Source: a virus. From it: a DNA stretch of 64,000 bases. The translations under genes were made by a program, and so were the position numbers. The notes beneath the pieces were generated by a model, which saw nothing but the letters and a program-made list of their open reading frames with translations, searched no databases and was not told the DNA's origin. Within the stretch, counting starts at the first letter, position 1. Each line of letters starts with the position of its first letter. The stretch is taken from IMG/VR virus record IMGVR_UViG_3300020160_000289, positions 27,549-91,548 of that record; one strand, given 5' to 3'. Shown here piece after piece: positions 4,401-27,686 of this stretch.

Positions 4401-7071
4401 CAGTTTTAAAGATCAACGTTTCTGATGCGTTGTCCATACCAAAGAAGCTTCGTCTGTATGTTGCTGTGCTAATGACCGCGCTAGGATTATAGTGGAATAA
4501 TAAACCTCGATCAAATCCGTCGTTTATTAAGATATCAGAATTGTCTGGGTTAGTACCTAAATCTATTACAGGGTCTGCGATAGAAGTCTGAGTACTGTTC
4601 ACTATTGTGGTCGTACCTTTAACAGTTAGGTTACCAACAACAGTAGCACTTCCACCCACATAGATATCTTTGCCAATACCTACGCCACCGTTAACAACAA
4701 TAGCACCGGTGGTGGTCGATACAGCATTATCCATGCTGGTAGCAAACAACTGATTAGTAAAGTTTAAACTGCCGTTTACCTGTAGATCGCTTTCGATTGT
4801 GGTCAATGACCCCGATGGATCTAATACAAGATTACCGCTAATTGTTTGAACTCTGTTTGACGAGAATAATAATGAACCAACCTGAATACTTGTTGGCTGA
4901 AGCACTGACGCATTAACGCCGTCACTGATTGTTAAACTTGATAACGGTCCTAATCTAAAGTTGGCCGTTCCAAAATCCACGTTGCCTGAACGCTGATTAA
5001 TACGGAACTGATCGCCGACACGGAAATCTCCAAGTTGATCAACTGTTTGATAGTAAACTTTTGCGCCGTTTAGTTTGACAATTTCATTATCTTGTACAGT
5101 TAGTGTCGGATCGTTGGTAAAATCTTTTCCTGAGCCAATGAAGCTCATGTTAAACGCAATGGCTTTTATGTCAATACCTTCACCGTCGGCATAGATACCA
5201 TAATTTCCGTAGCAGGCTGCGCTGCCGATACATCTTAACTCACCACCAAACTGTCTGTAGTCTGCTAGAGTAATCTGAAGGGCGCTGGCAACAACTGTGG
5301 CTGTATAAGAAGCAGTTGTTGAATAGATATTTTGTGCGCCCTGCCCATCATCTTTAAAATCTATACTGGTAGTGGCTCCATCTGCGTGGATCAATATTGT
5401 AGTATAAACATCAGAATTATAAGCAGTAGTGCTAGGAGTAAACGTGGTGGTGTTTCTACAAATGTTACTAACACGGATTTCATCCATGTAACCCTTTAAC
5501 GATACACTAGGTACTACTCCGTTACCACCAATTTCTAAAGCATCGCTGTTAGTGATACTGGCTGTTGCTGTGGTAGTTCCTTCTAGAACACCGTTAACAA
5601 ACAATCTGTTGGTGTTAAACGCATCTCGAGACATTTGCACATGATACCAACTGCCTGCGCTCAATGCTGTAGTTGCTGTGAATAGGATAGTACCGTGTTG
5701 GCCGACTAGCTTATTGTCGGCTCCAATGTACATACCAAAGGTAGTCGAAGGTGCCGACCCTTTGTTAAACAGTTGTTGTTTAGCATTAATGGAATCTAAA
5801 TAGACCCAAGATTCTAACGTGTAGGCGTTTAGGCCGTACTGTAAATCACTGTCACTAACAATGTTTAATAAGTCGCCGTTGGTTGTAAAATGTGCTGATG
5901 CTGTTCCAATTTTACGTTGGAAGCTGTCCATTGCTACATTACCGTAGACATTAATTACTTTGCCGCTACGATCTTGTGCTTCAACAAAGCCGCTGGCCTT
6001 GCCAGTTAGATATATGTATTCTGGAGTTACTTCATTAATAACGCCACTAGCCGCTACGGTACCTGTAGAGCTGATGTAATATAAATTATGCCCTACGGTG
6101 AATGTACCTGTGCTGTTGGCTAATCGTAATCGTGTACGGCCGGCGCCGCCCCAACCGGCTGATCCACTTTCGTAATGGATTCCTTTGTTGGCAAAATAGC
6201 TAAAGCCGTTTAGTAACTCTACTCGTGTACCGTTAGTAACATATACTGCGGTAGCATTTGGAGTAATGAATGTTGCTTCGTTGAATAAAAATGCCGCTTC
6301 AAGACTGGTAGAATCTACAAGAGCACCATCTAAGTATGCGCCGCCACCAGCATCTGTGCTGTCGTAGCCATATGGATCGCCTGATACAGGATTAGATCCT
6401 TTTGTAATAACACTAACTCGTTCTACATAGGGACTACGTGTTGTAATTTTCATTCCAGGATCGTATTCAAACGCATAACCTGGTTTATAAAATCCGCCAA
6501 CTGTAAGGTCGCTGATTGTAGTTTCGCCATTTAATAAAAATGCTGAACTGGTATTTGTTGCTGTAGTAGGTTTTACATATACTTGTCGAAGGCCTGCGCC
6601 ACGAACACTGACTCCGGTAGGAACAGTTAGTGGAAATTGTTCAGTATAGGTACCAGCAAGGATGTGTACAACTGCATTTTCTCCCACTGCGCCCGCAAGC
6701 TCTAAACCTTGCTTAATTGTTTGTACTGCGCTCTGAGGAATTTTTCCGTTAGCAGTATCATCACCTTGTTCGGAAACATAAAATACATGTTGGTCGGCTC
6801 GAAGGATATCCGTACCTTGTATTCTTAGTGTTCCGCCAATGTTTACATCACTGGAAAAGCCAACGCCGCCTAAAACTGTTAGGGCACCAGAAGTTGAATT
6901 CGTCGAAGAAGTAGTGGAAACAATGTTTAGCGGGCCGCCAAACGTAGATTGGCCAGATAGGCCTATGCCCCCTTTGATTATTAGGGCACCTGTAGTTGTG
7001 CTTGTCGATGTGGCAGTTAATCCGTTAAGGACTACCGCACCGTTTTTAACGATGAAATCACTTTGTGCCAT
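1495..7071 (-). CDS. Giant modular tail fibre, beta-helix with LamG-like insert
   Basis: 1858 residues. Order seen: two GALxVxGGxG modules (residues about 25-85); a pectin-lyase-like beta-helix starting with a FYVSEQGDD motif (about 95-370); a concanavalin/LamG-like domain (about 375-555; pattern LESWVYLDS, GSWYHVQMSRD, LFVNGVLEG, GYMDEIRVSN); beta-helix resumption and a VKLNGAKVYYQTVDQLGDFR segment shared with the other giants (to about 700). A long shaft follows with about nine more GALxVxGG modules and two copies of a DPVIDLG...DRGL..HYN...FGMDN domain. It ends in a short Tyr/Trp-rich tip (FWIDPSIGVEYQW). LamG domains usually bind glycans and beta-helices form trimeric phage fibre shafts, so host-surface recognition is the likely role. 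A terminator and a late promoter separate it from the gene upstream. Confidence 0.8.
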   Translation of the reverse strand: MAQSDFIVKNGAVVLNGLTATSTSTTTGALIIKGGIGLSGQSTFGGPLNIVSTTSSTNSTSGALTVLGGVGFSSDVNIGGTLRIQGTDILRADQHVFYVSEQGDDTANGKIPQSAVQTIKQGLELAGAVGENAVVHILAGTYTEQFPLTVPTGVSVRGAGLRQVYVKPTTATNTSSAFLLNGETTISDLTVGGFYKPGYAFEYDPGMKITTRSPYVERVSVITKGSNPVSGDPYGYDSTDAGGGAYLDGALVDSTSLEAAFLFNEATFITPNATAVYVTNGTRVELLNGFSYFANKGIHYESGSAGWGGAGRTRLRLANSTGTFTVGHNLYYISSTGTVAASGVINEVTPEYIYLTGKASGFVEAQDRSGKVINVYGNVAMDSFQRKIGTASAHFTTNGDLLNIVSDSDLQYGLNAYTLESWVYLDSINAKQQLFNKGSAPSTTFGMYIGADNKLVGQHGTILFTATTALSAGSWYHVQMSRDAFNTNRLFVNGVLEGTTTATASITNSDALEIGGNGVVPSVSLKGYMDEIRVSNICRNTTTFTPSTTAYNSDVYTTILIHADGATTSIDFKDDGQGAQNIYSTTASYTATVVASALQITLADYRQFGGELRCIGSAACYGNYGIYADGEGIDIKAIAFNMSFIGSGKDFTNDPTLTVQDNEIVKLNGAKVYYQTVDQLGDFRVGDQFRINQRSGNVDFGTANFRLGPLSSLTISDGVNASVLQPTSIQVGSLLFSSNRVQTISGNLVLDPSGSLTTIESDLQVNGSLNFTNQLFATSMDNAVSTTTGAIVVNGGVGIGKDIYVGGSATVVGNLTVKGTTTIVNSTQTSIADPVIDLGTNPDNSDILINDGFDRGLLFHYNPSAVISTATYRRSFFGMDNASETLIFKTGVATGPFSQITPSFLSLGTWGAARFGTLKLESTGDSSGSGSGSLISNGGAYFAKRVYSGANFYDVDGKLISIVTIPQYAVTTLTAGTDTAVNTSTGAVTVWTTSTLQTVTSRGSSTNVVVQFTNTSQATSTVTGAVTIVGGLGVGGDIYGANLYSDGSLVVTQGSIGSLGITALYAGTDTSVSSQTGQVYVWNNSTLQTVTGRGFTTTNAINITNATSSTSTTTGALTVAGGIGVTGDIWAKDIYSNGVKTLTTETDTLQLVTQRGATTDRAITFSNTSQATINGSQFAVQLSGGLYVAKRTYVTGEVTVGDGGVDSRSPLNVNGNYRLQSWNDSTGGLLDLYFTGTNSTGYFSLNVNSALGLALGPNEVIRVQQGGFGSNFVGINVTTATAQLEVGGDIKANNIYANGSLVITNATLGTYGVTSINTASGGGISINTSTGNVIIQSIDDLTAVTSRGNSTTNSIIIGGLSIPQGNATIGNTLDVLLTSNLNTVNVSGILNVTATTASISTSTGAVIIAGGAGIAGNVFAGALYDQSNRVVTSVTPVGGTGISIRSGAVTVGTATSFTIDNTGVIAIQGSTYIGVNSGTGIVTITNLGVQTLTAGADLSVTSNTGTITISNTSTLQSVTNRGSTTNNAIRITNATASTATTNGALVVTGGVGIGGALNVNGNAVINGSLQVFGSQTFVNSTQTYITDPVIELGAGANDTLLGINDGYDRGLVLHYNTTSTLNTAYDNHAFLGMDNATQKLVYKTNVYPGGVENYPAAFSNTGTWGSAKFGSLELVNSTSATSTLTGAITIIGGAGIGGTVYIGEKLFVAGYEVLTSGTGGVGSYVSFITAGTDTAISTSTGAVTVWNTSTLQSITNRGATTTNIVSFTNTGNSTSTVAGNAVQVSGGIGVTGDVYIQGDVYSQGGTPLYTPRVTVSTTPPTTSTNRLGDFWIDPSIGVEYQWIWSGTRYYWIQFTGAM

Positions 7072-12187: not shown

Positions 12188-15100
12188 TTATGCTCCTACC
12201 ACCAAGATGAACGGTGTCATAGTTGCGTACAAACTCTTTTCAAAGGTTCGTCCAGCAAGTACACCAGTACTCTGACTAATAACTAATGTTGGTCCGATTC
12301 TAAAATCTCCGTTTTGGTCTGTTGATGTAAAGAACACCTTACCGTTATTTAATTGAACCACTTCTTTGTTCTGTTGTGGGTCAGCAGTACCTACTTGAGG
12401 CAGAGCACCGTATTGTGTACCAGCACCTACATACTCAAATAAGTATCCAGACGCTGAAATGTAACTCTGTTGATAGAATCTTACTGTAGCACCATCGATG
12501 AATAATGTTGGGTCTGTTACGTTTTGTTCTAGTCGAACAATGTGATACTGTCCTTTTCGATTAAAGTAACCGTTACCTGTGTTTACAGAATTATAATTTC
12601 CACCGTATATTAAATCGTATCCTACCGCATCAATGATTGCTCCAACATCTCGATAACACTTATCTTTAGGATAATTTGGAGCGTCGGTAAACGCAGTATC
12701 AATATACGCAATAACTTCAGCTTTGATAAAATCTCTATTTGCCAATAGTAAGTCAAATGCGTTGATAACTTGAGTACTTGTACTTGCTACTTGACTAATT
12801 GGTTGTTTTGCTGGTGCTACTCCGGGACCATTGTTAATAATATTTGTAATATTATCTATTTTATCTTGTACTAAGGAAACTTCGATACTAGTTCCAGTTG
12901 ACGCAGATAATACTTGCGGAACTTTAAATTGGTAAGTGTTATCTAATGATGTTCCGGTAATAATATTACCGACTATGGTCTTAATATAGTCATACGCGGC
13001 AGTTGTTTGAGGAATTTGATCGTCAATGGCAGTATCAGCGGCATTAAATCCGTAGTAGTATACGCCGCTGGTAATACTTTGCCTGTTGCCGCCGTGTAAT
13101 AGATCAAAACTTAATGAATCGACTATGTACCCAACATCTCTATAACAAATTTCTCTATCGTAACTAAACTCTTGATTATCTAAATCTATACGAGCAATAA
13201 CTTCATCTTGAATAAATGCTTTATTAGCTCTTAATATATCGTAACTTGCTAGTATATTGGTGCTAGTTGAAACTACTCCGTTTGGAACAATTAAGTCAGT
13301 TACTCCAGTAGTTCCACCTGTCAATATTGACAGAATTAAATCAACATTATTTTGTACTGTTTGAGAAATCTTAACAGTACCCGTAGATAAATTTAACACT
13401 TGTGCTGTAGAAGTTGTAGCATCTACCGGTTCGTTGACTATGACTTTGCCTACTAATTCTTTAATATATCTTATAGCATTTGTAGTTGTTGTTAGTTGTG
13501 AAATTATTTCTCCAGTATAGGCATCTTGGTTCCAGTACTGTAATCCGGCAAACGTGCTTTCAGTTGTACCTTCGTACAACAAATCAAAAGCAATACTATC
13601 GATAATTAAACCAGTGTCTCTCTTACATTTTGTTTTATCATATAAAAATCCAGTGTTGTAAGTGTTATTAATATAGGCAATAGTTTCTGCTCTAATAAAA
13701 TCTCTATTAGCATTTAATAGTTTAACAGCGTTGACAGTAGAAGTGCTGGTGCTTGCTGTTACAGAAATTGATTCTTTAACCGTAACTTCGTCTGGACCGC
13801 GCTCAATAATATTATTAATTAAATTAACATTATTCTTAACTATTTGTGCTTCGACTGTTGTTCCAGTCTGTGTACTAATAACCTGAGTGATTAATGTTTG
13901 TTGTGGGTCCGTAATTAAAGTTCCCGTAACAATATTTTCAACAATACTTTCAATGAAATTATAAGCACTGGTAGTCTGTGGAATTTCTTTAGGTATTGCT
14001 GTGTCTTCTCCGTTATATCCGTAATAGTATACACCGCTTTGAACAGCTTGTTTGTTACCACCGTAGAGTAAATCAACGCTTACGCTGTCGATCATATAAC
14101 CTATATCTCGGAAACATTTTTCTTTGTCGTAAACAAACCCTGTAAAATTACTGTTAATATAAGAAACAATTTCGTCTTGAATAAATGTTCTATTGGCTAA
14201 CAATAAATCAAAAGCATAAGTTGAGTTAATGTCACTGCTCGCAGTTAAACTAATAGAAGTTAATGTTCCGGCAATCGCAGGTCCATTGTTGATAATATTT
14301 GTGATTTTATCAACCTTTGCTTTGGCCTTTGTTATTGTAGTACTATTAGCAGGCAACATATAAGTTATCTGATTTGTAGTATTTCCTGCGCTAGGAATAA
14401 TTTCAACTCCGCTGATAATATTACCAAGTATGTCTTTTAGTCGATTATAAGCGGCTGTAGTTTGGGGAATTTCATTTAAAATAGCTGTAGACGTACTAAT
14501 ATATCCGTAATACAACACTCCGCTCTGAATACTCTGCTTATTGCCGCCGTGTAGTAGATCAAATGCCACACTGTCAATCATGTATCCTGCGTCTCTTTGG
14601 CATTTAGCAGAGTCGTAAGTAAATCCACTTGTCTTAGTAGTTTCAACATAGGCAATAACTTCAGCTATTAGATATTCTTTGTTAGAAAGTAACAAATTAT
14701 AAGCATAGTTTGTATTTGTAGAAGAACGTCTTTTTCCGTTAGGAACAATAATATCAGTGACTCCGTTAGTTCCGGTGTTTAAAATATCAATAATAAAACC
14801 AAAGTTATTTCCAACAACAGCCGATTCGTTTGATGTTGCCACTAATGTTGAAGTAGTTTGTGTAACGGTACTTTGATATCTTGTGCCGCTCTGATTATTA
14901 ACTACAACTTTTTGCGCCAATGAGCTAAGGTATATAATAGCGTTAGTAGTAGTTGTTATTTCGTTGGCAATATTTCCAACATAACTATTTTGATTCCAAT
15001 ATTGGATTCCGGCAAATGTACTTTGACTATCGTTAGTTGACGGATATAATAGATCAAACGCAATACTGTCAACAATTAATCCTGTATCTCTCAAACACTT

Positions 15101-18100
15101 GGCCTGATCATATACAAAGTTAGATGTTTGATCAACATAGGCAACAACTTCATGTTGTAGATATTCCTTATTTGCCTGAAGTAAAGTATATGCCGAAATT
15201 GTTGAAGTGGACGTACTCGCAGTTATTCCGTTTGGTACAATTATGTCTGTTACGCCTTCGGTACCGTTTTCAAGAATAGTTAAGATTACATCAAAATCCT
15301 TCCCTACATTGGCAGCAACAATTGATGTGGAACTAGTTATTGTACTAGTCACTTGAGTAACAGTACTTTGATATCTATATCCAGATGTATTATTACGAAC
15401 AACTTGTTGTGCTAGAGACTTTAAGTAACTAATTGCTCTAGTTGTAGTGGTTTCTTCACCAGGAATAACACTTGCGTTTTGGTTCCAATATTGAAGGCCG
15501 GCAAATGTACTCTGGCTTGTTCCTTGGAATAATAAATCCTGTGCTAGAGAATCAACGATCAGTCCTGTATCTCGACTGCACTTAGCAGGATCGTAACTAA
15601 ATTTACTTGGCCATAGATCGTCAACAAATGCTACAGTTTCTTCTTGGATAAATCTTCTATTCTTATCAAGCAACTTTTTAGCATTTAATATATTGATGTT
15701 AGGGTCAACATATTGTCTAGGTCGAGTAATTTCTGGACTACTAGTAGATCCGTCTTTGATTATATTAGCGATAATGTCAAATTTAGATCCTAGAGATCCG
15801 ACAGCATCGATTCCGCCAGTTAAAGTTGAATCAAATATCTGTGAATACGCAGTTTGATACGTTCCAAGATCGTTGGTAGAATTAATATAGGCAATTACTT
15901 CTTCTTGGATAAATGATCGATTAGCTTGTAAGGCAAGATACGCATTATAATCTTCCGGAATTAACGATTCTGTTAAAGAAACAGGAACCTTAGCGTTGGC
16001 CGCATTGGGTCCGTTGTTAATAATATCAACAATAAGATCAATGCTATCTTGTAATTTTGTTACTTCTGTTATTGTGGCAGTAGAAATATTTGTTATTTGA
16101 GGAACAAAAGTCTGATAAGTAGAAGTTGTTATTCCTTGTACTACATACGGAATTAATTGTCGGATATAATTATAGGCCGCAGTAGTTGCTGGGATCTCAT
16201 TAGCTATCGCAGTTGAAGAAGAATTGTATCCGTAGTAACTAACGCCACTTTGAATAGCCTGTCTGTTACTCGACACATCTCCGTACGGATGTAGCAAATC
16301 AAACGCTACGCTGTCAATCATATACCCTACGTCTCGATAGCAAAGGCCGGCATCGTAAGTAAATCCAGAAGTTTTTGTTGTTTCAACATAGGCAATCGCT
16401 TCTTCTTGGATATATGTTTTATTACCTAATAATAAATTATAAGCCTTTGTTCTTTCTTCTGTTCCTGATATTTCACCGTTAGGAATAATTTTATCAGTTA
16501 CTCCTGCAACTCCATCAACGATGATATCTAATATTACCTCAAAATCATTTCCTACGATTGTAGCGGCTACGATCGAAGCAGGTGGCGGAGAAATATTTTG
16601 TGTAACAGTAGATTGGTAACGAGTTCCTGAGCTAACGCTACCTGTTATATTTTGAACAATTTCTTGTGCTAACTGCTTAACATACCTAATGGCATTAGTA
16701 GTAGTGGTCAGTTCGTTGGCAATGGTGCCAATATACTGATCTTGATTCCAGTATTGAAGACCGCTAAAATTACTCTGACTTAGTTCAGTTGTTGGGTATA
16801 ACAGATCTACGGCAATAGAGTCAATTATTAGTCCAGTGTCTCTCTTACATTTTGCCTGATTATATACTAATCCGGCGACCGGTTCATTTTGTATTACTCG
16901 AAGAGCGAGATTTTTAGCATAGCTAACTGCTAAAGATGTGGTTGTTTCTTGGCCAGGAACAAGTGTCACTTGATTTGTAACAGTTGACGACAATGACTCG
17001 TCGACTATACTTGACAATACTGTATAATATGCGTTACCACAGAAATATAAATTAAAAAACGCATCGTAATTTAAGTCTTGATACCCGGATACTATTGGAC
17101 GGTCTAAAGTTATCGATCTAAAATTGACATCAATTACCTGTGTACCAGTAGTGATATAAGGAATGCCTGTATCTGGATTTACAGAGTTTCCAAAAACATC
17201 AGTCACATAAAGTGTATGACCGACTGCGACGTCAGTTACATCGATATCATTGATAGTGTAACTGTTAGTAACAAGGGTGTTAGTGTTAATTGTGGCAATC
17301 AGGTATCCTGGATATCCTGCTGAATTAACGTAAGGAACCCTATCACCATTGTAATCAAGGTAAGTATCAGGGGCAACAACTTCCATAACTTGCCCGATGT
17401 GTGGACGATCTCTATCGTTAGGAATAAAGACTTCCATTCTTTGTTTGTTTGGCCAAAAACCTAATGGGTAGAAATCACTGTTAGGTACGTTTGTAGGATA
17501 CGCAGGGTTTCTAACAAATCCTGCGAATGCCAATTTGCCTAAACCTTTTGCCGTTAAACAAGTATCACCAAAGTTTGCGTTAGAGTTAGTAATAGAAGCA
17601 ATGCCGCCGTTCTCAACAATAACAGCCTGACTACACATAATAGTAAACACAGAAACTAACTGTGCGTATCCGTTATTAATAATGTGGACTCCGATACCGC
17701 CTTGTGTAACTTGCGTGAACGCATCAAACACAAAAGATTGAATAGGTGATCGTATACTCGGAGCGTTCCCGTCAACTAATGCGCCACCCCCAGACCCTAT
17801 AGGATCAAGTCTACGATCAGCATACTTGTCTCCGTCATTTACAGTCCATGCTGTGGGTATATCAGCATCTAAGAACGGATATACCGAAGTTTCTCCAAAA
17901 TAGATTGTTGCGTTATCGCTAGGACTTACAGTAGGAGAACTTAATGTAATTAAGTATACATTATCTGACACGGTTGTGATCGCAGTTATTGTAGACGCAT
18001 TATTAACGCCATTGGGACTTAGACCAGTTGGATATATTAATCCGTAAAGATCTTCTTTAGGATTTGGAACACTGCTTTCGCCGCTTTGGATGATTGATGA

Positions 18101-19522
18101 AATTAAATTAAAACTTTCAATTATTCTAGTATTAACAACTTGACCGTTGTCTAAATTTAAATTGATAACCTGGAAGGTAGAAGTATCAAATAAATTAGTT
18201 ACAGTATTATTGACAATAATATCTACTGATAAATCTCTAATATAATTAATTGCCGCGATTGTTTGAAATTGTTCTCCGGAAATTAAACTGGTATTCCCGG
18301 ACCAATAGGCTAGCCCTGCTTCGATACTTCTTTTGTTCCCGCCGAATCGAGCGTCACCAGCAACCGCATCAACGATATATCCTACATCGCGATAACACTT
18401 AACTTGATTATATACTAAATCTGGAAATTGATCTTCTACGAATGCAACAGCTTGTGTTTGTAGAAATATCCTATTCTTTTCTAGTAACAACTGAGCATTT
18501 CTATATCCTTCGTTGGCAGCATCATTGACTGCCATACCTACAGAAATAGTACCTGTATATACAGAAACTACAATTTGATTTTGATCTGCTGTCCAGGTTG
18601 ATGTTCCTGCGGCTAACGGAATTTGTATTGTTTGATTTGGGTTAAACATTGTCCCGTCTTTCAACCACGGACCACTTTGATTGGTACAGTTTTGAATGTA
18701 CGGAGAATGATATAAATCTATAGGATTTTCTAAGTTAGGAGGAAACGCACACATGTATGCGCCAGTTGTGTATGTACCTTGACCTCCGGGAGCATATCTT
18801 TCAACACTTCCTCTACGTAGATTACGCATTTGCATTTGTGCAATGTATACACCAGAATTAACATGGAATAAATCTAAATCTTTATTCAATGGTTCAACAA
18901 AAGTAGTTCTTAAGTCATTACCAACCACCGAAGTGTATGCCTTTAGAGGTATTGGGTTATCTTCAAAATAAGTACCTGCGGCAACTCTAATTGTTGTGCC
19001 TTCGGTATACAATGGACTACGAACAGCTCCACTGATTGTTCTACATGCTCTTGTAGAATCAAGCGCAGATCCGTCATTATTATCATTTCCGTTTGGAGTA
19101 ACATATAGGGTCAACGGATTAATTGGAAATGTTCCTAGAGGAATACCGCTTACAGTAAAATCCCCGGTTACCGAACCGTCGCCAGTTACTGCTAAATCTT
19201 GTTCAATGTCTACATCACCTGCTATTTGAACTTTCTGAAATGGTGTTAGTATAATATTTGAGTTAGAGTCTACACCGTTAATTTCAATTTCAGTGCCATT
19301 TTGCGTGGATCTAATAACCTGACTTGTGAAACTTAGTTTACCTAAAGTATTTGTAAAAGTAGCTTTACCACTATCGTCTGTTTGTAACGTATAACCAGTA
19401 TTAGACTCCGGAGCAACGCCGAGCGCAGGCTGAGCATTATCTACTCCTAGATAATCCCATCTATCTGGTTTTAAATTCTCTGGGCGAGGAACCGGTTTTC
19501 TATTACTTAATAAACGTGGCAT
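12188..19522 (-). CDS. Giant fibre protein, interrupted beta-helix with ten Cys-RD repeats
   Basis: 2444 residues. An N-terminal adaptor (1-140) leads to a pectin-lyase-like beta-helix half (about 145-310; LYVTPNGNDNNDG, IRVAAGTYFEDN, LFHVNSGVYI). One alpha-helical repeat follows (Cys376), then a second beta-helix half (about 548-850; GSGGGALVDG, QGGIGVHIINNGYAQL, ASITNSNANFGD). Nine more repeats have Cys at 892, 1061, 1315, 1476, 1641, 1803, 1966, 2126 and 2289. The repeat motif is YDxxKCxRDxGxIxDS, with period mostly 160-165 residues. The end (2328-2444) is a conserved tip, with EVVQLNNGKVFFTS and NGDFRIGPTLVIS, shared with the 2190-residue paralogue. The role of the repeats is unknown. A virion fibre is likely from the beta-helix and the neighbours. 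No promoter is evident; it probably belongs to the unit that starts near 26.6 kb. Confidence 0.8.
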   Translation of the reverse strand: MPRLLSNRKPVPRPENLKPDRWDYLGVDNAQPALGVAPESNTGYTLQTDDSGKATFTNTLGKLSFTSQVIRSTQNGTEIEINGVDSNSNIILTPFQKVQIAGDVDIEQDLAVTGDGSVTGDFTVSGIPLGTFPINPLTLYVTPNGNDNNDGSALDSTRACRTISGAVRSPLYTEGTTIRVAAGTYFEDNPIPLKAYTSVVGNDLRTTFVEPLNKDLDLFHVNSGVYIAQMQMRNLRRGSVERYAPGGQGTYTTGAYMCAFPPNLENPIDLYHSPYIQNCTNQSGPWLKDGTMFNPNQTIQIPLAAGTSTWTADQNQIVVSVYTGTISVGMAVNDAANEGYRNAQLLLEKNRIFLQTQAVAFVEDQFPDLVYNQVKCYRDVGYIVDAVAGDARFGGNKRSIEAGLAYWSGNTSLISGEQFQTIAAINYIRDLSVDIIVNNTVTNLFDTSTFQVINLNLDNGQVVNTRIIESFNLISSIIQSGESSVPNPKEDLYGLIYPTGLSPNGVNNASTITAITTVSDNVYLITLSSPTVSPSDNATIYFGETSVYPFLDADIPTAWTVNDGDKYADRRLDPIGSGGGALVDGNAPSIRSPIQSFVFDAFTQVTQGGIGVHIINNGYAQLVSVFTIMCSQAVIVENGGIASITNSNANFGDTCLTAKGLGKLAFAGFVRNPAYPTNVPNSDFYPLGFWPNKQRMEVFIPNDRDRPHIGQVMEVVAPDTYLDYNGDRVPYVNSAGYPGYLIATINTNTLVTNSYTINDIDVTDVAVGHTLYVTDVFGNSVNPDTGIPYITTGTQVIDVNFRSITLDRPIVSGYQDLNYDAFFNLYFCGNAYYTVLSSIVDESLSSTVTNQVTLVPGQETTTSLAVSYAKNLALRVIQNEPVAGLVYNQAKCKRDTGLIIDSIAVDLLYPTTELSQSNFSGLQYWNQDQYIGTIANELTTTTNAIRYVKQLAQEIVQNITGSVSSGTRYQSTVTQNISPPPASIVAATIVGNDFEVILDIIVDGVAGVTDKIIPNGEISGTEERTKAYNLLLGNKTYIQEEAIAYVETTKTSGFTYDAGLCYRDVGYMIDSVAFDLLHPYGDVSSNRQAIQSGVSYYGYNSSSTAIANEIPATTAAYNYIRQLIPYVVQGITTSTYQTFVPQITNISTATITEVTKLQDSIDLIVDIINNGPNAANAKVPVSLTESLIPEDYNAYLALQANRSFIQEEVIAYINSTNDLGTYQTAYSQIFDSTLTGGIDAVGSLGSKFDIIANIIKDGSTSSPEITRPRQYVDPNINILNAKKLLDKNRRFIQEETVAFVDDLWPSKFSYDPAKCSRDTGLIVDSLAQDLLFQGTSQSTFAGLQYWNQNASVIPGEETTTTRAISYLKSLAQQVVRNNTSGYRYQSTVTQVTSTITSSTSIVAANVGKDFDVILTILENGTEGVTDIIVPNGITASTSTSTISAYTLLQANKEYLQHEVVAYVDQTSNFVYDQAKCLRDTGLIVDSIAFDLLYPSTNDSQSTFAGIQYWNQNSYVGNIANEITTTTNAIIYLSSLAQKVVVNNQSGTRYQSTVTQTTSTLVATSNESAVVGNNFGFIIDILNTGTNGVTDIIVPNGKRRSSTNTNYAYNLLLSNKEYLIAEVIAYVETTKTSGFTYDSAKCQRDAGYMIDSVAFDLLHGGNKQSIQSGVLYYGYISTSTAILNEIPQTTAAYNRLKDILGNIISGVEIIPSAGNTTNQITYMLPANSTTITKAKAKVDKITNIINNGPAIAGTLTSISLTASSDINSTYAFDLLLANRTFIQDEIVSYINSNFTGFVYDKEKCFRDIGYMIDSVSVDLLYGGNKQAVQSGVYYYGYNGEDTAIPKEIPQTTSAYNFIESIVENIVTGTLITDPQQTLITQVISTQTGTTVEAQIVKNNVNLINNIIERGPDEVTVKESISVTASTSTSTVNAVKLLNANRDFIRAETIAYINNTYNTGFLYDKTKCKRDTGLIIDSIAFDLLYEGTTESTFAGLQYWNQDAYTGEIISQLTTTTNAIRYIKELVGKVIVNEPVDATTSTAQVLNLSTGTVKISQTVQNNVDLILSILTGGTTGVTDLIVPNGVVSTSTNILASYDILRANKAFIQDEVIARIDLDNQEFSYDREICYRDVGYIVDSLSFDLLHGGNRQSITSGVYYYGFNAADTAIDDQIPQTTAAYDYIKTIVGNIITGTSLDNTYQFKVPQVLSASTGTSIEVSLVQDKIDNITNIINNGPGVAPAKQPISQVASTSTQVINAFDLLLANRDFIKAEVIAYIDTAFTDAPNYPKDKCYRDVGAIIDAVGYDLIYGGNYNSVNTGNGYFNRKGQYHIVRLEQNVTDPTLFIDGATVRFYQQSYISASGYLFEYVGAGTQYGALPQVGTADPQQNKEVVQLNNGKVFFTSTDQNGDFRIGPTLVISQSTGVLAGRTFEKSLYATMTPFILVVGA
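12560..16960 (-). repeat. Array of nine ~162-residue Cys-RD repeats
   Basis: Inside the 2444-residue fibre. The conserved Cys codons lie at about 16849, 16342, 15580, 15096, 14602, 14116, 13627, 13147 and 12658, mostly 480-495 bases apart. One long interval (16342 to 15580) contains a degenerate partial copy that lacks the KCxRD core. Two subtypes occur: RDTGL...STFAGLQYWNQ and RDVGY...GGNxQSxxSGVxYYGY. Confidence 0.85.
18060..18530 (-). repeat. Single Cys-RD repeat inserted between beta-helix halves
   Basis: One copy (Cys codon at about 18397, residue 376) with the VKCYRDVGYIVDA core. It splits the beta-helix of the 2444-residue fibre. The 2190-residue paralogue has five copies at the same place. 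Confidence 0.8.
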
Positions 19523-19543
19523 CGTTTTCTCTTATGTTTTATT

Positions 19544-19930
19544 TTAATTGTTTGCTGTTTCTAACACGCTTAATACAAGTTTACACGAGCCGGCTGCGTC
19601 TGAATAAGCTCTGATACTATCTTGACTTTCGAGAATCATCTTGCCAGTAATTAACGATGCTGAGTCATTGGGCGGAATTGGGAAGTTCATTACCAACTCC
19701 GATGTTGTATTTGGCTCTTGTGCGTTATTACCTTGGGCGTCAGGAAGAACTCTAAATCTTCTATGATGACTGAAAGTAACAGTATGTGTAGCTTGACTAT
19801 CAACGTTGGCCACCTGTGCCATCAAGATAATAGAAGTAACTCCGATTGGTGCTACATAAACAGTAGCAGTAGTATTAGTATCTAAAATCTTTGTCTTTGT
19901 CTTAAACGTGTTTAATGGAATTAATGCCAT
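19544..19930 (-). CDS. Small virion-associated beta protein
   Basis: 128 residues, strongly beta-patterned, with no signal peptide or membrane segment. Pattern: TTATVYVAPIGVTSIILMA near the start, then IPPNDSASLITGKMILES and DSIRAYS. The 105-residue protein at 27369-27686 has the same plan (IPAGETFSMDTERFILQDGDSVQAQAS), so the two look like distant paralogues. It lies between the two giant paralogous fibres and has a good ribosome-binding site (AAAGGAG about 7 bases upstream). It may be a small structural or assembly partner of the giant fibres. I do not recognise a named family. Confidence 0.65.
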   Translation of the reverse strand: MALIPLNTFKTKTKILDTNTTATVYVAPIGVTSIILMAQVANVDSQATHTVTFSHHRRFRVLPDAQGNNAQEPNTTSELVMNFPIPPNDSASLITGKMILESQDSIRAYSDAAGSCKLVLSVLETANN

Positions 19931-19941
19931 GTATTTCTCCT

Positions 19942-22900
19942 TTATTCGCTGCCGCCCGCTTCAACAGCTAAGATGAATGGTGTCATCTGGGCAAACAAGC
20001 TCTTTTCAAATGTCCTGCCAGACAACACACCTGTTGCCTGACTAATCACTAATGTTGGACCGATACGGAAATCTCCGTTTTGGTCTGTTGAAGTAAAGAA
20101 CACCTTACCATTATTTAACTGAACAACTTCTTTGGTCTGTTCGGGGTCAACTCTTCCTACTTGAGGCAAGGCACCGTATTGTGTTCCTGCTCCGCAATAT
20201 TCAAACAAGTAGCCTGACGCACTTTGATAACTTCGTTGATAGAAGTTAACTGTACTACCGTCAACAAATAACAATTGATTTCTTACGTTATCTTCCAAAG
20301 TAGCGATATGGTAAGTACCTTCTCTTGTGTAATATGTCTTAGCTGCCTCGACACTCCTAAAGTTGCCCCCAGTTTGTAAATCCGCTATGAGAGCATCGAT
20401 CATTAAGCCGGCATCTCTTCGACATTTTTGTTTATTGTATACAAACGTTTGAGGGAACGTTTCATTGATATAGGCAATCGTTTCTGCTTTGATAAATTCT
20501 TTATTAGCAAGTAATAACGCAAATGCTTTTAATCTATTCGGATTAGCATTTTGTACAAGACCAACTGGTACCTTTTCGCCTGCTTCGTCTGGGCCGTTTC
20601 TAATAATATCAGTTATAATATCAACCTTTGACTGAAGTACTGCAGCTTCTGCTAAAGTGGCAGGGTTTAAATTAGTTACCTGAGGTACTGCTGTTTGGAA
20701 ATTTGGAGATGTTGGAGTACCAGTTACAATATCTCCAACAATGGCTTTGATAAAATTATAGGCAGCTTCTGTTTGTGGAATTTGATTATCAATCGCAGAG
20801 TCGGCAGGGTTAAATCCGTAGTAGTAAACTCCTGACATGATACTTTGTCTGTTACCGCCATGAAGCATATCAAAGCAAACTGAGTCTACAATATATCCAA
20901 CATCTCGGCGACACTTAGTTTCATCGTAGCTAAAACCGCCGCCGTAAGTTGAAGTTATGTAGTTAATAACTTGTGTTTTGTAAGATTCTTTGCTTGCTTG
21001 GACGTTGGCTACTGCTGTCAATGCTGTAAAGTCAGTAGTTTTAAAACCGTTTGGAACGATATCATCTGATATTCCAACAATTCCGTTATCTAATATGTCA
21101 AGTATGTTGTCAAAACGTTGGCCAGCAACTACACCTGGTGCGCCGCCAGCAGTTGATACTACTAACGATTTTAGATAAGCAATCGCGCCCCTAGTCTGTA
21201 CGATTTGATCAATAATATCTCCAGTATAGCTGTCTTGATTCCAATATTGTAATCCAGCAAATGTACTTTGAGAAATGCTATCGTAAAGCATGTCAATAGC
21301 AATACTGTCAACAATCAACCCTGTATCTCTTGAACACTTGGCTTCATCGTAAGTAAATCCTCCGTAGATAGCATCTACATAGCTTACAGTTTCGTTCATT
21401 AGAAAGATTTTATTCTTTTTAAGCAAAGCAATAGCATCATTTTTTCCAGCAACTGCAGTTCCTGTAGTCTTAACTTGCGGTGCGGCCTGTGGTCCAGCTA
21501 GTATTACTCCTGTAATAATACCTAGACTATCACTAATAAATCCAGTTGAATTATTTCCTGACGGAAAACCATTGTCAATAGTTTGAGCTACACTAGTGCT
21601 GTATGTAGCAGTCATTAAAATATTTGATACTACATTGTTAGATATGTCTCTTAGATAGTTAATAGCGTCAATTGTTTCGGTCTCTTGGCCTAATATTTTA
21701 CTTTGACCAGTTGGATACGGACTAGTAACTGTTTTGCTACTTAAAATGTTATAGTATGCGTTTCCACAGCAATAGATATTAAAATAATTTCCGTTGCCGT
21801 ATTGGCCGCCACCTTGTAGAATAGGGTTACTCAGTGTAATTGATTGATAATTAACTTCGGTGATTGTCGTACCTGTTGTTAAGTAAGCAACTCCGTCACC
21901 GTTATCATCTGCTTCATATCCAAACTGATCTCTTATATAAACAGTCTGTCCTACTGAAACTCCCGTTACATCAATTCCATCAACTGTATAACTGCTGGTC
22001 GTTAAACTAGATGTGTTGACAATGGCTGTTAAAAATCCCGGAAATCCTTGTTCGTTAATGTACGGAACAGTTATTCCGTCGTAGTTTACATATTCGTCTG
22101 GAGGAACAACTTCCATCACTAAACTAATGTGTGGTCTATTGGCAGGATCTGGCACAAACACACATACCTGCTGGCTAGTAGGGAAATAGCCTTGTGGATA
22201 ATATTCGTTAGCTTCAAAGCTATTTGTTAACTCGTTATAGGCAACGTTGGCCGGATTGTAAATTGTTCCTCCAAATTTACGTCTTCCATACCCTCGAGAT
22301 AAAAGACATAAGTCACCAAAGTTATTATTTGAGTTGGTAATAGAAGCAATACCGCCGGCATCAGTTTCAACAGCAATGTTACAGAAAATTGTAAACACAG
22401 ATACTAACTGAGCATAGCCTTCATTGATAATATGAATTCCTCTTCCACCTTGGGTAATTTGTGTAAACGCATCAAACACAAAAGATTGAATTGGACTTCT
22501 AGTAGATGGCGCAAATCCGTCGACGAGAGCACCGCCACCGGAGCCGTTAGGATCAATTCTTCTATCAGCAAATCCGTCAAGACTCCATTCGCCTGGCATA
22601 TTTTTATCTTCTTCTGGGTATACTGTCGTATAACCAATATACATAATATCATTTGTTGCTGACGCAATCGTTGAAGTACTTAGATGTAGAATGAACTGAG
22701 TTAATGTGGAATTTGTACTAGGAGGTGCGAAAGGTGGACCATTTTCTATAATAGTAGCGATAGCATCAAAATTGTTTCTTACTAAATCTCTAGCAACATA
22801 ACCGCCATTCAATTGACTGTTAATAAGTTGCGGTACAACGATTGTAGCAGTAGTTGAGCTTGAACCAGGGACTGTAATTTGTTTGGATGTTTGGTATAAA

Positions 22901-25900
22901 GAAGTTACTGGATTATTAGCAATAACTTCTAATGCTAGATTTTTAAAATATAAGATAGCGCCAGCAGTTTCTTTTGTTTGTCCTTCGATTACACTAACCG
23001 CATTATCCCAGTAGGCATATCCTGCTTCTAAAGATTTAATATTTGATCGATTAACAATATCTTGAGCAACAGCATCCACGATTAACCCAACATCTCTAAA
23101 ACATTTTTCTTCATTGTACTTGAATACGTAAGGGTTGATAAATGTAGTATTAACAAACTCAACTACTTCGGCAACAATAAAATCTCTGTTTGCTACTAGT
23201 AGATCATATGCTCGAAGAACTGATGTTGATGTGCTAATATCTAAACCTATCGATGATAGCTCCGGAGCAGCCGATGGTCCGTATTTTATAATTTTTCTAA
23301 TTAAGTCAATGTTATCGCCAACCGCTCGAGACTCATCAGCAGTTGCTGCCAGATAGTCTGTATTTTGTAAAATATTAGGCTGATATGTTCTTGTAGCAGT
23401 TATACGTTGAACAACTTTGTCAACTAACGCTTTCATGTACTTGTAAGCCGCCATGGTCTGCGGTATTTCATTTATAAGAACTGTGCTGGTGGAGTTATAT
23501 CCGTAATAAGAAACTCCTGCTTGTACGCTTTGTCTATTGCCGCCGCGTAATAAATCCATAGTAACGCTGTTTACTATGTACCCAGCATCTCTTCTACATT
23601 TTGTTTGATCGTATACAAAACCGCTTGGTTTATTTGCTTCAACATACGCCACTACCTCATCTTGAATAAATGACTTATTATTTTTTAAAGTTTGAACAGC
23701 ATATAATACATCAACATCTGTAGATACAGCACCGTTTGGTACGATTGTATCAGTGACCCCTGCTGTACCAACTGTTAAAATATTCAATATTACATCATAT
23801 TTGTCAACAAGATCAGACACGACTGTGACACTAGTAGCCGTTACTGAGGTATCTTGTATAGCTGTGCTTAGTTTGCTAACAGTAAAATTTTGTACTATTT
23901 GTTCTGATATCTGTTTAGCATAATTAAAAGCATTTCTTGTAATAGTCTCTTCGCCAGGTATCTCAGTTGTGCCTTGATTCCAATATTGTAGTCCGGCAAA
24001 AGTTGATTGGCTTGATCCTCCATATACTAGATCTAACGTTAAGCCGTCTAAAATTAATCCAGTATCTCGTTCGCAATGTGATTCATTGTAAACAAAATCT
24101 AATTTTGTAAAAGTAGTATCAACATAGGCCACTACTTCGTGTTGTAAGAATTCTTTATTAGCTACTAAAAGATCGTAGCTGTTAACAATTTCCGATATTG
24201 TGCTAGGATTAACACTATTAGAAACTAAAGATGAAGTTTGCTTTCCTTGAATTCGGCGATTGATTAATACAATATTCCTGCTAACAAGTTCAACGGCAGC
24301 ATTTGTGCCGGTAGTTAAATTGACAATCTGTGTAACTGTTGATTGATAACTGTCTAATAGTTGATTTTTTAATATTACATCTCTAACGATTGAACCTAGA
24401 TAAGTTATTGCTGAAACTGTTTCGTCTATTTGGTTCGCTATTACTGCTCCGTTAGAGTAACTTGCGCCAGCGGCAGTTGATTGCTCATTGCCACCATATA
24501 GCAAGTCAGTTGCTAAGGCATCGATTAATAGTCCAGTATCTCTAAAACATTTTGATCTATCGTAGGTAAAACTTGGAATTGATTGTCCTACGTAAGTTTC
24601 ATTTACAAATGATACTACTTCCGCTTGTAAGAATCCTCTATTAGCATTTAACAATGCCGCGGCATTTTCGTAACCTGGTTGATTTTCTAGAATGTCTACT
24701 AGTAAACTAATCGAGTTATCAATTCCGCCTACTACTACTGAGCCGCCATTAGATGCTGTATTAAATGATTGAAATGCTATCGTACCTGTAGTTTTTGTAA
24801 CAGTTACATTAGATACGATATCTTTAGCAATAACTCCAATCCTATTAAACGCTGCAATAGTTGCAGTAGTTTCGTTGCCTAAAATTTGAACATTGTTTAC
24901 ATAATAAGATTTACCAGCAGTAACAATACTTTCGTTGCCGCCTAAAATAACATCATTAACAAGAGCATCTACAACATAACCAACGTCTCTTCTACATTTT
25001 ACTCTGTCATAAACAAGATCTGAATAAAAGAAATCTACATATGAAACAACTTCGTCTTGTATAAAAGATTTATTATCTACTAATAATCCTTTAGCAGTTT
25101 GAAAATTTGGATCAGGATTTTCAATAGCGTCAATAGTGGCGACTAGTATATCTGGATCAATTAAAATACCTTTTCCGTTAATAGACATTCCTATCTCGGG
25201 CATCTGACCTGAAATTTCAGGGAGTATGTTTACAGTTATAACCGTGGTGTTGATTACGTATGTGGATGTAGCAACTACTAATGGAACTTGAACTGTTTGA
25301 TTTGGCACAAACATTGTTCCATCAAACAGCCACGGACCTGATTGATTAGTACAGTTTTGAATATAGGGACTGTGAAATACGTCAATTGGATTATCTAGCT
25401 TAGGTGGAAAGGCAACACAATACGCACCGGTTGTGTATGTGCCAGCACCGCCCGGCACGTAGCGAGTAACTTCTCCTCGACGAAGGTCTCGCATGGTCAT
25501 CCCAGTAATATAAACACCGCTGTTTACATGGAACAAATCAACTGCGTTGTTTAATGGAAATACAAAAACTCCCCTTAAGCTGTCTCCATATACAGATGTG
25601 TAAGGCAACAATTCAATAGGATTGTCTTCGTAATATTTTCCAGGAGCAACTTTAATAACAGTACCTTGTTTGTAATAAGGACTTTTAGTTGCTCCACTAA
25701 TCGTACGGCAAGCACGGCTTGAGTCCATGGCTCTACCATCATTTTCGTCACTACCGTTTTCGTTTACGTATAGTATATTATTAACAACAGGGGCAGTTCC
25801 AATTGGATTTCCGCCGTAGACTCGAATGTCTCCGTTAATTTGTACGCTCTTGTTTAGGGTTCTTTCTAGTAGAGGTATATCTGGAAAGAATTGAACGTTA

Positions 25901-26514
25901 GTATATGTACCAACAGTATCTACTTGCTTAGTAAAAATATTTTCTAAGTAAGCACTCTTCCAGTAAGAAGTAGTATTACCGATACTGTAATCAGAAATAA
26001 TATTAGTATTGGTAATAAATTCTGTTACTGTAAATCCGTTAGTAACTGTGGTAACAAATGTCCCGGAACTTAGATAGGGTAATAGATCAGTATCAATCTC
26101 TCCAAGTAGACTAATCGTGTCGCTTGATGTAGTATCGCCTAATTTAATATTTCCTTGGGCAAAGAAATTTCCTGTAGCAAATACATCACCGTCAACTCGT
26201 AGGTCAGAGTTGATAAATGTATCATCTGTACCGCCTGGTGTAATATTAAATGGACCGTAGATGGTCGAAACTGTGCTACTAGATGTTGAGCTTTCTATGG
26301 TTATTAAACCGATAGTAGCGGTATTAAGGATTATTTTGGCAGCTCTAATTGTGCCTGTGTTAACATCTAACTCGTATGCCGGAGCAGATTGTCTAATACC
26401 AATTCGGCCGTTTACAACGTCAACATATAGCAAATCATCGTCAATTGCTATGTCTATGCCGTCTCGTCGCAAGTTGCTTGCGAGTAACGGACCAGTAATG
26501 CGACCAATGGCCAT
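19942..26514 (-). CDS. Giant fibre protein, interrupted beta-helix with eight Cys-RD repeats (paralogue)
   Basis: 2190 residues, a paralogue of the 2444-residue fibre. Order: N-terminal adaptor with DLRVDGDVFATGNFF-type short repeats (1-240); beta-helix half (about 245-420; LYVNENGSDENDG, LFHVNSGVYITGMTMRDLRR). Five alpha-helical repeats follow (Cys507, 656, 814, 973, 1138), then the second beta-helix half (about 1290-1590; GSGGGALVDG, GRGIHIINEGYAQL). Three repeats come next (Cys1727, 1868, 2031) and a C-terminal tip (about 2060-2190) almost identical to the paralogue (GYLFEYCGAGTQYGALPQV, NGDFRIGPTLVIS). The beta-helix halves and tip align well; the repeat count differs at both insertion points. 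A late promoter lies about 90 bases upstream. Likely a fibre or tail appendage; no enzymatic motif is visible. Confidence 0.8.
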   Translation of the reverse strand: MAIGRITGPLLASNLRRDGIDIAIDDDLLYVDVVNGRIGIRQSAPAYELDVNTGTIRAAKIILNTATIGLITIESSTSSSTVSTIYGPFNITPGGTDDTFINSDLRVDGDVFATGNFFAQGNIKLGDTTSSDTISLLGEIDTDLLPYLSSGTFVTTVTNGFTVTEFITNTNIISDYSIGNTTSYWKSAYLENIFTKQVDTVGTYTNVQFFPDIPLLERTLNKSVQINGDIRVYGGNPIGTAPVVNNILYVNENGSDENDGRAMDSSRACRTISGATKSPYYKQGTVIKVAPGKYYEDNPIELLPYTSVYGDSLRGVFVFPLNNAVDLFHVNSGVYITGMTMRDLRRGEVTRYVPGGAGTYTTGAYCVAFPPKLDNPIDVFHSPYIQNCTNQSGPWLFDGTMFVPNQTVQVPLVVATSTYVINTTVITVNILPEISGQMPEIGMSINGKGILIDPDILVATIDAIENPDPNFQTAKGLLVDNKSFIQDEVVSYVDFFYSDLVYDRVKCRRDVGYVVDALVNDVILGGNESIVTAGKSYYVNNVQILGNETTATIAAFNRIGVIAKDIVSNVTVTKTTGTIAFQSFNTASNGGSVVVGGIDNSISLLVDILENQPGYENAAALLNANRGFLQAEVVSFVNETYVGQSIPSFTYDRSKCFRDTGLLIDALATDLLYGGNEQSTAAGASYSNGAVIANQIDETVSAITYLGSIVRDVILKNQLLDSYQSTVTQIVNLTTGTNAAVELVSRNIVLINRRIQGKQTSSLVSNSVNPSTISEIVNSYDLLVANKEFLQHEVVAYVDTTFTKLDFVYNESHCERDTGLILDGLTLDLVYGGSSQSTFAGLQYWNQGTTEIPGEETITRNAFNYAKQISEQIVQNFTVSKLSTAIQDTSVTATSVTVVSDLVDKYDVILNILTVGTAGVTDTIVPNGAVSTDVDVLYAVQTLKNNKSFIQDEVVAYVEANKPSGFVYDQTKCRRDAGYIVNSVTMDLLRGGNRQSVQAGVSYYGYNSTSTVLINEIPQTMAAYKYMKALVDKVVQRITATRTYQPNILQNTDYLAATADESRAVGDNIDLIRKIIKYGPSAAPELSSIGLDISTSTSVLRAYDLLVANRDFIVAEVVEFVNTTFINPYVFKYNEEKCFRDVGLIVDAVAQDIVNRSNIKSLEAGYAYWDNAVSVIEGQTKETAGAILYFKNLALEVIANNPVTSLYQTSKQITVPGSSSTTATIVVPQLINSQLNGGYVARDLVRNNFDAIATIIENGPPFAPPSTNSTLTQFILHLSTSTIASATNDIMYIGYTTVYPEEDKNMPGEWSLDGFADRRIDPNGSGGGALVDGFAPSTRSPIQSFVFDAFTQITQGGRGIHIINEGYAQLVSVFTIFCNIAVETDAGGIASITNSNNNFGDLCLLSRGYGRRKFGGTIYNPANVAYNELTNSFEANEYYPQGYFPTSQQVCVFVPDPANRPHISLVMEVVPPDEYVNYDGITVPYINEQGFPGFLTAIVNTSSLTTSSYTVDGIDVTGVSVGQTVYIRDQFGYEADDNGDGVAYLTTGTTITEVNYQSITLSNPILQGGGQYGNGNYFNIYCCGNAYYNILSSKTVTSPYPTGQSKILGQETETIDAINYLRDISNNVVSNILMTATYSTSVAQTIDNGFPSGNNSTGFISDSLGIITGVILAGPQAAPQVKTTGTAVAGKNDAIALLKKNKIFLMNETVSYVDAIYGGFTYDEAKCSRDTGLIVDSIAIDMLYDSISQSTFAGLQYWNQDSYTGDIIDQIVQTRGAIAYLKSLVVSTAGGAPGVVAGQRFDNILDILDNGIVGISDDIVPNGFKTTDFTALTAVANVQASKESYKTQVINYITSTYGGGFSYDETKCRRDVGYIVDSVCFDMLHGGNRQSIMSGVYYYGFNPADSAIDNQIPQTEAAYNFIKAIVGDIVTGTPTSPNFQTAVPQVTNLNPATLAEAAVLQSKVDIITDIIRNGPDEAGEKVPVGLVQNANPNRLKAFALLLANKEFIKAETIAYINETFPQTFVYNKQKCRRDAGLMIDALIADLQTGGNFRSVEAAKTYYTREGTYHIATLEDNVRNQLLFVDGSTVNFYQRSYQSASGYLFEYCGAGTQYGALPQVGRVDPEQTKEVVQLNNGKVFFTSTDQNGDFRIGPTLVISQATGVLSGRTFEKSLFAQMTPFILAVEAGGSE
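20330..21430 (-). repeat. Three Cys-RD repeats, C-terminal site
   Basis: Cys codons at about 21336, 20913 and 20424 (residues 1727, 1868, 2031). Same position as the nine-copy array in the paralogue, after the second beta-helix half. Confidence 0.8.
22690..25110 (-). repeat. Five Cys-RD repeats inserted between beta-helix halves
   Basis: Cys codons at about 24996, 24549, 24075, 23598 and 23103 (residues 507-1138), spaced 149-165 residues. The array interrupts the beta-helix at the same point where the paralogue has one copy. Confidence 0.8.
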
Positions 26515-27368: not shown

Positions 27369-27686
27369 TTAACCTACTAGAACATAGCTACATGTGCAGG
27401 TAATAATTGTATTTTGACTTGCCTGAGCTTGCACGCTGTCACCGTCTTGTAAAATAAATCTTTCTGTGTCCATGCTAAAAGTTTCTCCGGCCGGAACAGA
27501 AATTTGATTTAAAATTATATTTGCGTCACCTGCGGCAATAGCAGACGGTACCATCCATACGCTCACTGTTGCGTCAACAGTTAAACTTGAATTACAAAAT
27601 ATTAAGCAGGTAACAGCGTTTTCTCCGTTGGCTACAAAGACTTCTGTTTTTTGTGATGCGCTTAATTGCGAGTTAGTGATTGCCAT
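27369..27686 (-). CDS. Small virion-associated beta protein
   Basis: 105 residues with four cysteines, including a CTC pair near the C-terminus. It is beta-patterned and related in plan to the 128-residue protein at 19544-19930 (segment IPAGETFSMDTERFILQDGDSV). The start at 27686 follows the 342-residue gene by 9 bases and the end lies 4 bases before the next gene, so the three are co-transcribed. The function is unknown. Small beta proteins of this sort in fibre loci are often structural or act as connectors. Confidence 0.6.
   Translation of the reverse strand: MAITNSQLSASQKTEVFVANGENAVTCLIFCNSSLTVDATVSVWMVPSAIAAGDANIILNQISVPAGETFSMDTERFILQDGDSVQAQASQNTIITCTCSYVLVG

Follow-up and report, generated by a model that had tools for sequence, protein, structure and literature searches.

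The window analysed here is a stretch of 64,000 nucleotides, positions 27,549 to 91,548 of the 91.5-kb IMG/VR virus record IMGVR_UViG_3300020160_000289. Two of its open reading frames (ORFs) encode giant paralogous proteins, referred to below as fibre proteins A and B, which lie among baseplate and fibre genes, are homologous to annotated fibres and match PHROG tail-fibre families (Table 1). Both have a scaffold and a conserved tip, interrupted at two sites by arrays of a helical unit with a CxRD motif, and the fold, order and pairing of these units are the subject of this analysis. Each unit is numbered by the residue of its CxRD in protein A or B. The motif positions confirmed the count of an initial annotation, which had listed 18 copies divided 1+9 and 5+3 between the paralogues: the motif lies at 376 in site 1 and at 892, 1061, 1315, 1476, 1641, 1803, 1966, 2126 and 2289 in site 2 of A, and at 507, 656, 814, 973 and 1138 in site 1 and 1727, 1868 and 2031 in site 2 of B. 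Two main subtypes were distinguished, L (LQYWNQ) and Y (YYGY), and A/B units of one main subtype are approximately 39-59% identical in pairwise comparison, far above chance. In A, a 19th, truncated unit without the CxRD core was found at residues ~1198-1262. Each protein also has a lone C-terminal half-unit helix past its second scaffold block, and the unit just ahead of the tip is a distinct, shortened "cap."

The scaffold and tip align between A and B, as had been proposed, and both align with PSSM2_293 of the Prochlorococcus phage P-SSM2, a 617-residue protein that possesses the two beta-helix blocks and the tip and contains no unit. In PSSM2_293 the blocks are directly joined (residue 183 against 189), and this five-residue linker is the place occupied by site 1, which spans ~300 residues in A and 940 in B. 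In an AlphaFold prediction of A residues 100-885 (model m09ee36363a80), the helical unit is flanked by beta strands, and no substantial helical block other than unit 376 lies between the two blocks of the scaffold, in line with the earlier suggestion that one insertion point splits a beta-helix. Since the site-1 array sits in a short linker of a beta-helix scaffold, its end must lie close to its start. The A/B scaffold showed a weak fold match to beta-helix phage tailspikes such as LKA1 gp49; to our knowledge, no such tailspike carries inserted arrays of this kind. A megablast search against phages gave no match.

Table 1. Features of fibre proteins A and B in the window
Feature	Positions	Strand	Basis or remark
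Fibre protein A, 2444 aa	12188..19522	-	ORF; PHROG tail-fibre families
A conserved C-terminal tip	12191..12610	-	Alignment; P-SSM2 516-615
A unit 2289, cap, N-terminal half only	12572..12760	-	Unsupervised cluster solely of last-before-tip units
A unit 2126, Y4	12800..13249	-	Strand 258-265 in m71dbe71d244b; partner L4
A unit 1966, L4	13280..13729	-	AlphaFold model m71dbe71d244b, strand 98-103
A unit 1803, Y2, outer Y	13769..14218	-	Residue at 52:52, partner L2
A unit 1641, Y3, inner Y	14255..14704	-	Residue at 52:52, partner L3
A unit 1476, L3, inner L	14750..15199	-	Partner Y3, 52:52 = Tyr:His
A unit 1315, L2, outer L of LLYY	15233..15682	-	Partner Y2, separated by two units; 52:52 = Phe:Tyr
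A truncated unit lacking the CxRD core	15737..15931	-	Unit hidden Markov model (HMM) match to first helix only
A unit 1061, Y1	15995..16444	-	Subtype Y; partner L1, 52:52 = Tyr:His
A unit 892, L1, without first helix	16502..16885	-	Subtype L; bracket partner Y1
A half-unit, lone C-terminal helix before site-2 array	16889..16978	-	Weak unit-HMM match; helix 760-778 in model
A scaffold part 2, beta-helix	16913..17884	-	Aligns with P-SSM2 residues 189-281
A unit 376, sole and last unit of site 1	18050..18499	-	CxRD
A scaffold part 1, beta-helix-like	18485..19108	-	Aligns with P-SSM2 PSSM2_293 residues 61-183; AlphaFold beta strands
Small ORF, 128 aa, between B and A	19544..19930	-	Kept beside these fibres in relatives and P-SSM2
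Fibre protein B, 2190 aa, paralogue of A	19942..26514	-	ORF; PHROG tail-fibre families
B conserved C-terminal tip	19954..20382	-	Alignment
B unit 2031, cap	20338..20526	-	64% identity to A cap
B unit 1868, Y	20566..21015	-	52:52 = Tyr:His with unit 1727
B unit 1727, L	20989..21438	-	Pair with unit 1868
B scaffold part 2	21655..22623	-	Aligns with P-SSM2 189-291
B unit 1138, last of site 1	22756..23205	-	40% identity to A unit 376
B unit 973, Y	23251..23700	-	Partner of unit 814
B unit 814, L	23728..24177	-	Pair with unit 973, 52:52 = Tyr:Arg
B unit 656, A class	24202..24651	-	CxRD; clustering
B unit 507, A class	24649..25098	-	CxRD; clustering
B scaffold part 1	25165..25785	-	Aligns with P-SSM2 57-183

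Likeness of the unit to phycobiliproteins

Foldseek comparison of the model comprising the scaffold and one unit (m09ee36363a80) with the PDB returned phycobiliproteins at a probability of 1.00; these made up most of the best 50 PDB matches listed, with target template modelling (TM) scores of 0.52-0.69 over ~150 columns. A profile of 78 units, the kind of search that the initial annotation had proposed, matched 12 PDB sequences at E<=1, all of them phycocyanins (alpha chains where labelled; best E, 0.002), and aligned the unit CxRD on the phycocyanin CxRD, which is the bilin-attachment motif. These matches start at phycocyanin residue 34-38, past the N-terminal X and Y helix region. With an earlier unit profile, 33 of 34 matches were phycobiliproteins. 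Furthermore, the Pfam family Phycobilisome matched 11 of the 78 units (best, 9e-5) and was the only family, among those listed, to match more than one unit. The reported invariance of Cys and Arg-Asp proved to be near-invariance, the three residues occurring jointly in 92-100% of units in every class. Collectively, the model and the profiles suggest very strongly that the unit, whose fold the initial annotation had left unassigned, adopts a phycobiliprotein-like (bilin-binding globin) fold. A disulfide or thioester role of the Cys was considered and dropped, as each unit has only one conserved Cys and the likeness to phycobiliproteins accounts for it better.

The units resemble phycobiliproteins, cyanobacterial pigment proteins for light harvesting (PF00502; phycocyanin alpha, phycoerythrin), in their predicted globin-like fold, in a length of ~162 residues that is similar to the unit period, in a CxRD at the position of the attachment Cys, and in comprising two paralogous kinds that probably pair. 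They differ in being tandemly fused within a fibre ORF and inserted in a beta-helix, and helices before the globin core are not evident. Light-harvesting phycobiliproteins proper are free subunits that assemble into phycobilisomes; the units, being parts of a fibre ORF, do not belong among them.

Order, covariation and copy number of L and Y units

IMG/VR scans provided a discovery set of 114 distinct proteins with 871 units, and the 160-170-residue period recurs hundreds of times in relatives. Unsupervised clustering separated the units into the cap, a last-of-site-1 class (P), an A class, 255 L units and 255 Y units. These classes replaced a positional rule dropping the last unit of each array, which had broken some words wrongly. 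The order of L and Y units forms balanced brackets in 118 of 119 complete discovery arrays, including all 61 with at least four L/Y units, and the words include LY, LLYY, LLLYYY and LLYLLYLYYY. The two subtypes of the initial annotation were thus upheld, while its mixed order gave way to balanced brackets. A later set of 46 non-overlapping proteins was classified with class models frozen beforehand; its sequences are distinct and come from the same broad phage group, and it is therefore a replication rather than a fully independent sample. Here 44 of 50 arrays were balanced (34 of 37 with at least four L/Y units). Nine of the balanced words were new, including LLYLLYLYYYLY and LLYLYYLLYLYLYY, and shuffling of the letters would leave 3.6 of the 16 distinct later-set words balanced. 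No Y-type units were found in bacterial genomes.

Insertion of dimers could by itself yield balanced words, and evidence of contact was therefore sought in covariation. Average-product-corrected mutual information (MI-APC) reached 0.487 for bracket partners, compared with a maximum of 0.138 when partners were shuffled within a protein, and was concentrated in few column pairs. The 52-52, 57-60, 57-56 and 130-58 couplings persisted in 66 non-adjacent partners, in which 52-52 and 57-60 were the top two of all column pairs, and were about zero in L-L, Y-Y and Y-L neighbours; the 112-16 and 105-12 couplings behaved oppositely and tracked chain neighbours. Log-odds trained on adjacent pairs preferred the true non-adjacent partner over other Y units in the protein (52-52: z, 6.3; 0/2000). 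The true partner ranked first in 31 of 66 cases, where 13.9 were expected. At 52:52, most pairs are either Tyr:His (or Arg, Asn, Thr) or Phe:Tyr, with a compensatory switch in 15 of 19 independent clades and the opposite switch in none. In the LLYY of A, the outer pair is Phe:Tyr and the inner pair Tyr:His. The 57-60 covariation (acid:Lys) is striking by counts, with few independent clades behind it. Mirror-tree correlation was 0.63 for nested and 0.37 for sequential pairing, and none of 2000 random swaps reached the nested value. In AlphaFold model m71dbe71d244b, L4 and Y4 contribute one strand each, the only strands outside the low-confidence tip; for DSSP to call them, they must form a bridge, either with each other or with part of the tip. 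Each array is thus likely to fold into hairpins of L:Y pairs, nested within one another, and to close onto the fibre loop that it leaves.

Comparison of copy number in relatives, which had also been suggested, showed that it is not fixed: 90 complete proteins hold 3-20 units, and orthologues of A are divided 1+9, 1+11, 1+13 and 5+15. In most close relatives B keeps its 5+3, and counts identical to those of the window were found in the closest sister contig (100% over those scaffold segments that were compared). Within a protein, unit identity over the core reaches at most 71%, so the expansion is not recent. Copy number changes slowly and by whole L:Y pairs, with no clear gain or loss of a single L or Y unit, and in one family a new pair is lodged between the members of an old pair. 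The initial description of an expandable module holds insofar as the unit is insertable and its copy number differs among relatives; free growth and shrinkage by recombination were not supported. As a separate observation, residues ~880-1262 of A (and relatives L022, L013 and L029) contain a short L unit without its first helix, then its Y partner, and then the truncated unit, which supplies such a helix, as if this L-Y pair were circularly permuted.

Proposed architecture and its alternatives

We propose that A and B would be baseplate or tail fibres, built of a beta-helix scaffold and a C-terminal tip, with arrays of CxRD domains of putative phycobiliprotein fold inserted at two places of the fibre body. 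L and Y would be specialised paralogues forming heterodimeric pairs within one chain, the array running out via L units and back via their Y partners, such that LLYY would be an outer pair enclosing an inner pair. The arrays would thereby form closed, sometimes branched side arms, both ends of which meet at the insertion point; the arms may project from the fibre and widen its contact with the host surface. They would gain or lose whole L:Y pairs, including a pair within a pair, since a unit lacking its partner would keep the arm from closing. This explanation as a whole, which we consider likely, draws on the predicted fold of the site-1 unit, its motif, the bracket order, the partner covariation and the insertion into a scaffold that exists unit-free, all computed here. 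If it is true, the order of the domains would follow a bracket grammar in which far-apart domains covary in a compensatory manner. This would be a protein counterpart of secondary structure in RNA, one that could be read from the sequence by itself and lengthened by inserting pairs, and phycobiliprotein-like domains would be virion building blocks. In the open-access literature, we found neither such domains described for tail fibres nor domain arrays in bracket order, and phycobiliprotein-like repeats and their nested pairing in phage fibres would be new if they hold. The analysis also gives a domain annotation for giant "hypothetical" or "tail fibre" proteins in many cyanophage and metagenomic phage genomes.

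Several observations weigh against this architecture. A second model, of two units, the cap and the tip, had no significant PDB match and phycobiliproteins at low rank only; in the viral library BFVD, what it matched at E<=0.001 was phage proteins, including several tail proteins of cyanophages. Single Pfam scans of the two fibre proteins gave no match, and neither did a search for PF00502 in the record that contains the window or PDB searches by single sequence. The fold assignment consequently stands on one model and on profiles of moderate E-value. The weak single-sequence scores and the lack of a significant PDB match for the second model speak for an unrelated helical bundle that resembles phycobiliproteins by chance. 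However, the 78-unit profile finds phycobiliproteins only, they dominate the fold search, and CxRD aligns in place, which leaves a chance likeness very improbable. As for the bracket order, three later-set arrays open with Y (YLYLYLYL, YLYL and YLLY), the opposite polarity, and in some arrays the count of A-class units is odd; the other three later-set exceptions have weakly classed Y units amid A units. Pairing between the chains of a multimer would be a further possible alternative, and no experiments on A/B fibre proteins were found in the literature.

One objection to nesting is that insertion of L:Y dimers gives balanced words without it, so that covariation alone argues for contact. L and Y could then be mere subtypes in a linear string of beads, whose balance reflects duplication of an L-Y dimer: repeated insertion of LY dimers at unit boundaries gives only balanced words, and the L/Y subfamilies E-D and l-y are co-inherited. 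Such a string leaves unexplained the specific couplings between partners at least two units apart, absent in like chain neighbours, as well as the compensatory 52:52 switches, and unequal recombination should produce the single-unit changes that were not clearly seen. We regard it as improbable, although somewhat less so than a recombinational length switch, in which copy number would vary freely and tune fibre length. The latter accounts for differences in copy number among relatives, but is at odds with the absence of recent duplicates, the paired changes and the constancy of counts in the sister contig and in B, and appears quite unlikely.

Bilin binding and phage lineage

In phycobiliproteins, the Cys of CxRD covalently binds bilin and the Arg and Asp contact it, while no lyase is needed for bilin binding by related globins that have CXRD (PMC10151467). 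Among the latter, the bilin biosynthesis-associated globins (BBAGs; Rockwell et al. 2023, PMC10151467) resemble the units in being phycobiliprotein paralogues, some with CXRD, that lie outside photosynthesis and are tied to heme oxygenase and bilin reductase genes; those described differ in that the clusters encoding them are bacterial and also contain genes for V4R, iron-sulfur or B12-binding proteins, whereas A and B hold many fused copies in a phage fibre. By extension of the nested architecture, the units may covalently carry bilins, giving a pigmented virion fibre for light sensing, photoprotection or with bilin as a structural cofactor. The motif and its near-invariance are consistent with this. 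Heme oxygenase adjoins bilin reductase in 5 of 42 unit-bearing records, four of which exceed 200 kb, and of 24 reductase-bearing records tested 6 have units, all within the 7 records of at least 100 kb. The heme oxygenase and bilin reductase ORFs overlap in all three loci read, which belong to large unit-bearing phages (G003, G038 and G017).

In contrast, 37 of the 42 unit-bearing records, most of them fragments, show no bilin reductase, and no CpeT or CpeS lyase was found in any of the 42. Of the cultured phages, P-SSM2 has a bilin reductase and no units, and none of nine unit-bearing ones has the reductase. Large phages with a related portal hold units anyway, so lineage confounds the link with bilin genes, and the Cys-Arg-Asp motif could be retained for packing. 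The patchy bilin-synthesis genes neither prove nor exclude bilin binding, which we put forward as a hypothesis. That the conserved Cys carries a bilin is the weakest element of the proposal and appears possible though rather doubtful; the fuller picture, of chromophore-bearing branched side arms with RNA-like nested pairing and of phage heme oxygenase and bilin reductase serving to pigment the virion fibre, is more speculative still. If the fibres do bind bilins, they would be a candidate acceptor for those made by phage bilin-synthesis genes. The CpeT family is linked to bilin attachment, and in S-CAM4 a CpeT-like gene (4478-5002) was seen beside a unit-bearing "short tail fiber" gene (5292 onward), with two tRNA genes between them.

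The window's portal gene (34078-35784, minus strand) is closest to those of jumbo phages of heterotrophic bacteria (Phosso, PA5oct and TH47), not cyanophages, and the A/B phage is an uncultured, probably jumbo-sized member of the T4 superfamily. Fibre homologues in cultured phages are nearly all in cyanophages. psbA, like CpeT and CpeS, was not found in the 42 unit-bearing records, so cyanophage status is not established for them. Giant structural proteins of cyanomyoviruses (S-PM2 T4-GC 830; S-ShM2 T4-GC 1121; Syn9 "structural protein, putative fiber") contain divergent units of the same family and lie next to baseplate or virion genes; they differ from A and B in having few, mostly A-like units, with no clear L/Y specialisation or long nested arrays. 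Those of S-ShM2 and Syn9 are annotated as structural proteins in their records. The giant fibre of S-CREM2 has been detected in virions by mass spectrometry (PMC10665884). A search of S-CREM2 for units found none, and its virion fibre therefore cannot prove that units are present in virions.

Two further features concern the surroundings of the fibres. A further copy of the tip domain lies at residues 637-698 of a baseplate wedge-like protein that carries a laminin-G/lectin domain (window 1495-7071, minus strand). The 128-residue ORF between B and A keeps its position in all A/B relatives checked, and its P-SSM2 counterpart, PSSM2_294, adjoins the compact fibre; it is possibly a fibre partner or attachment protein.

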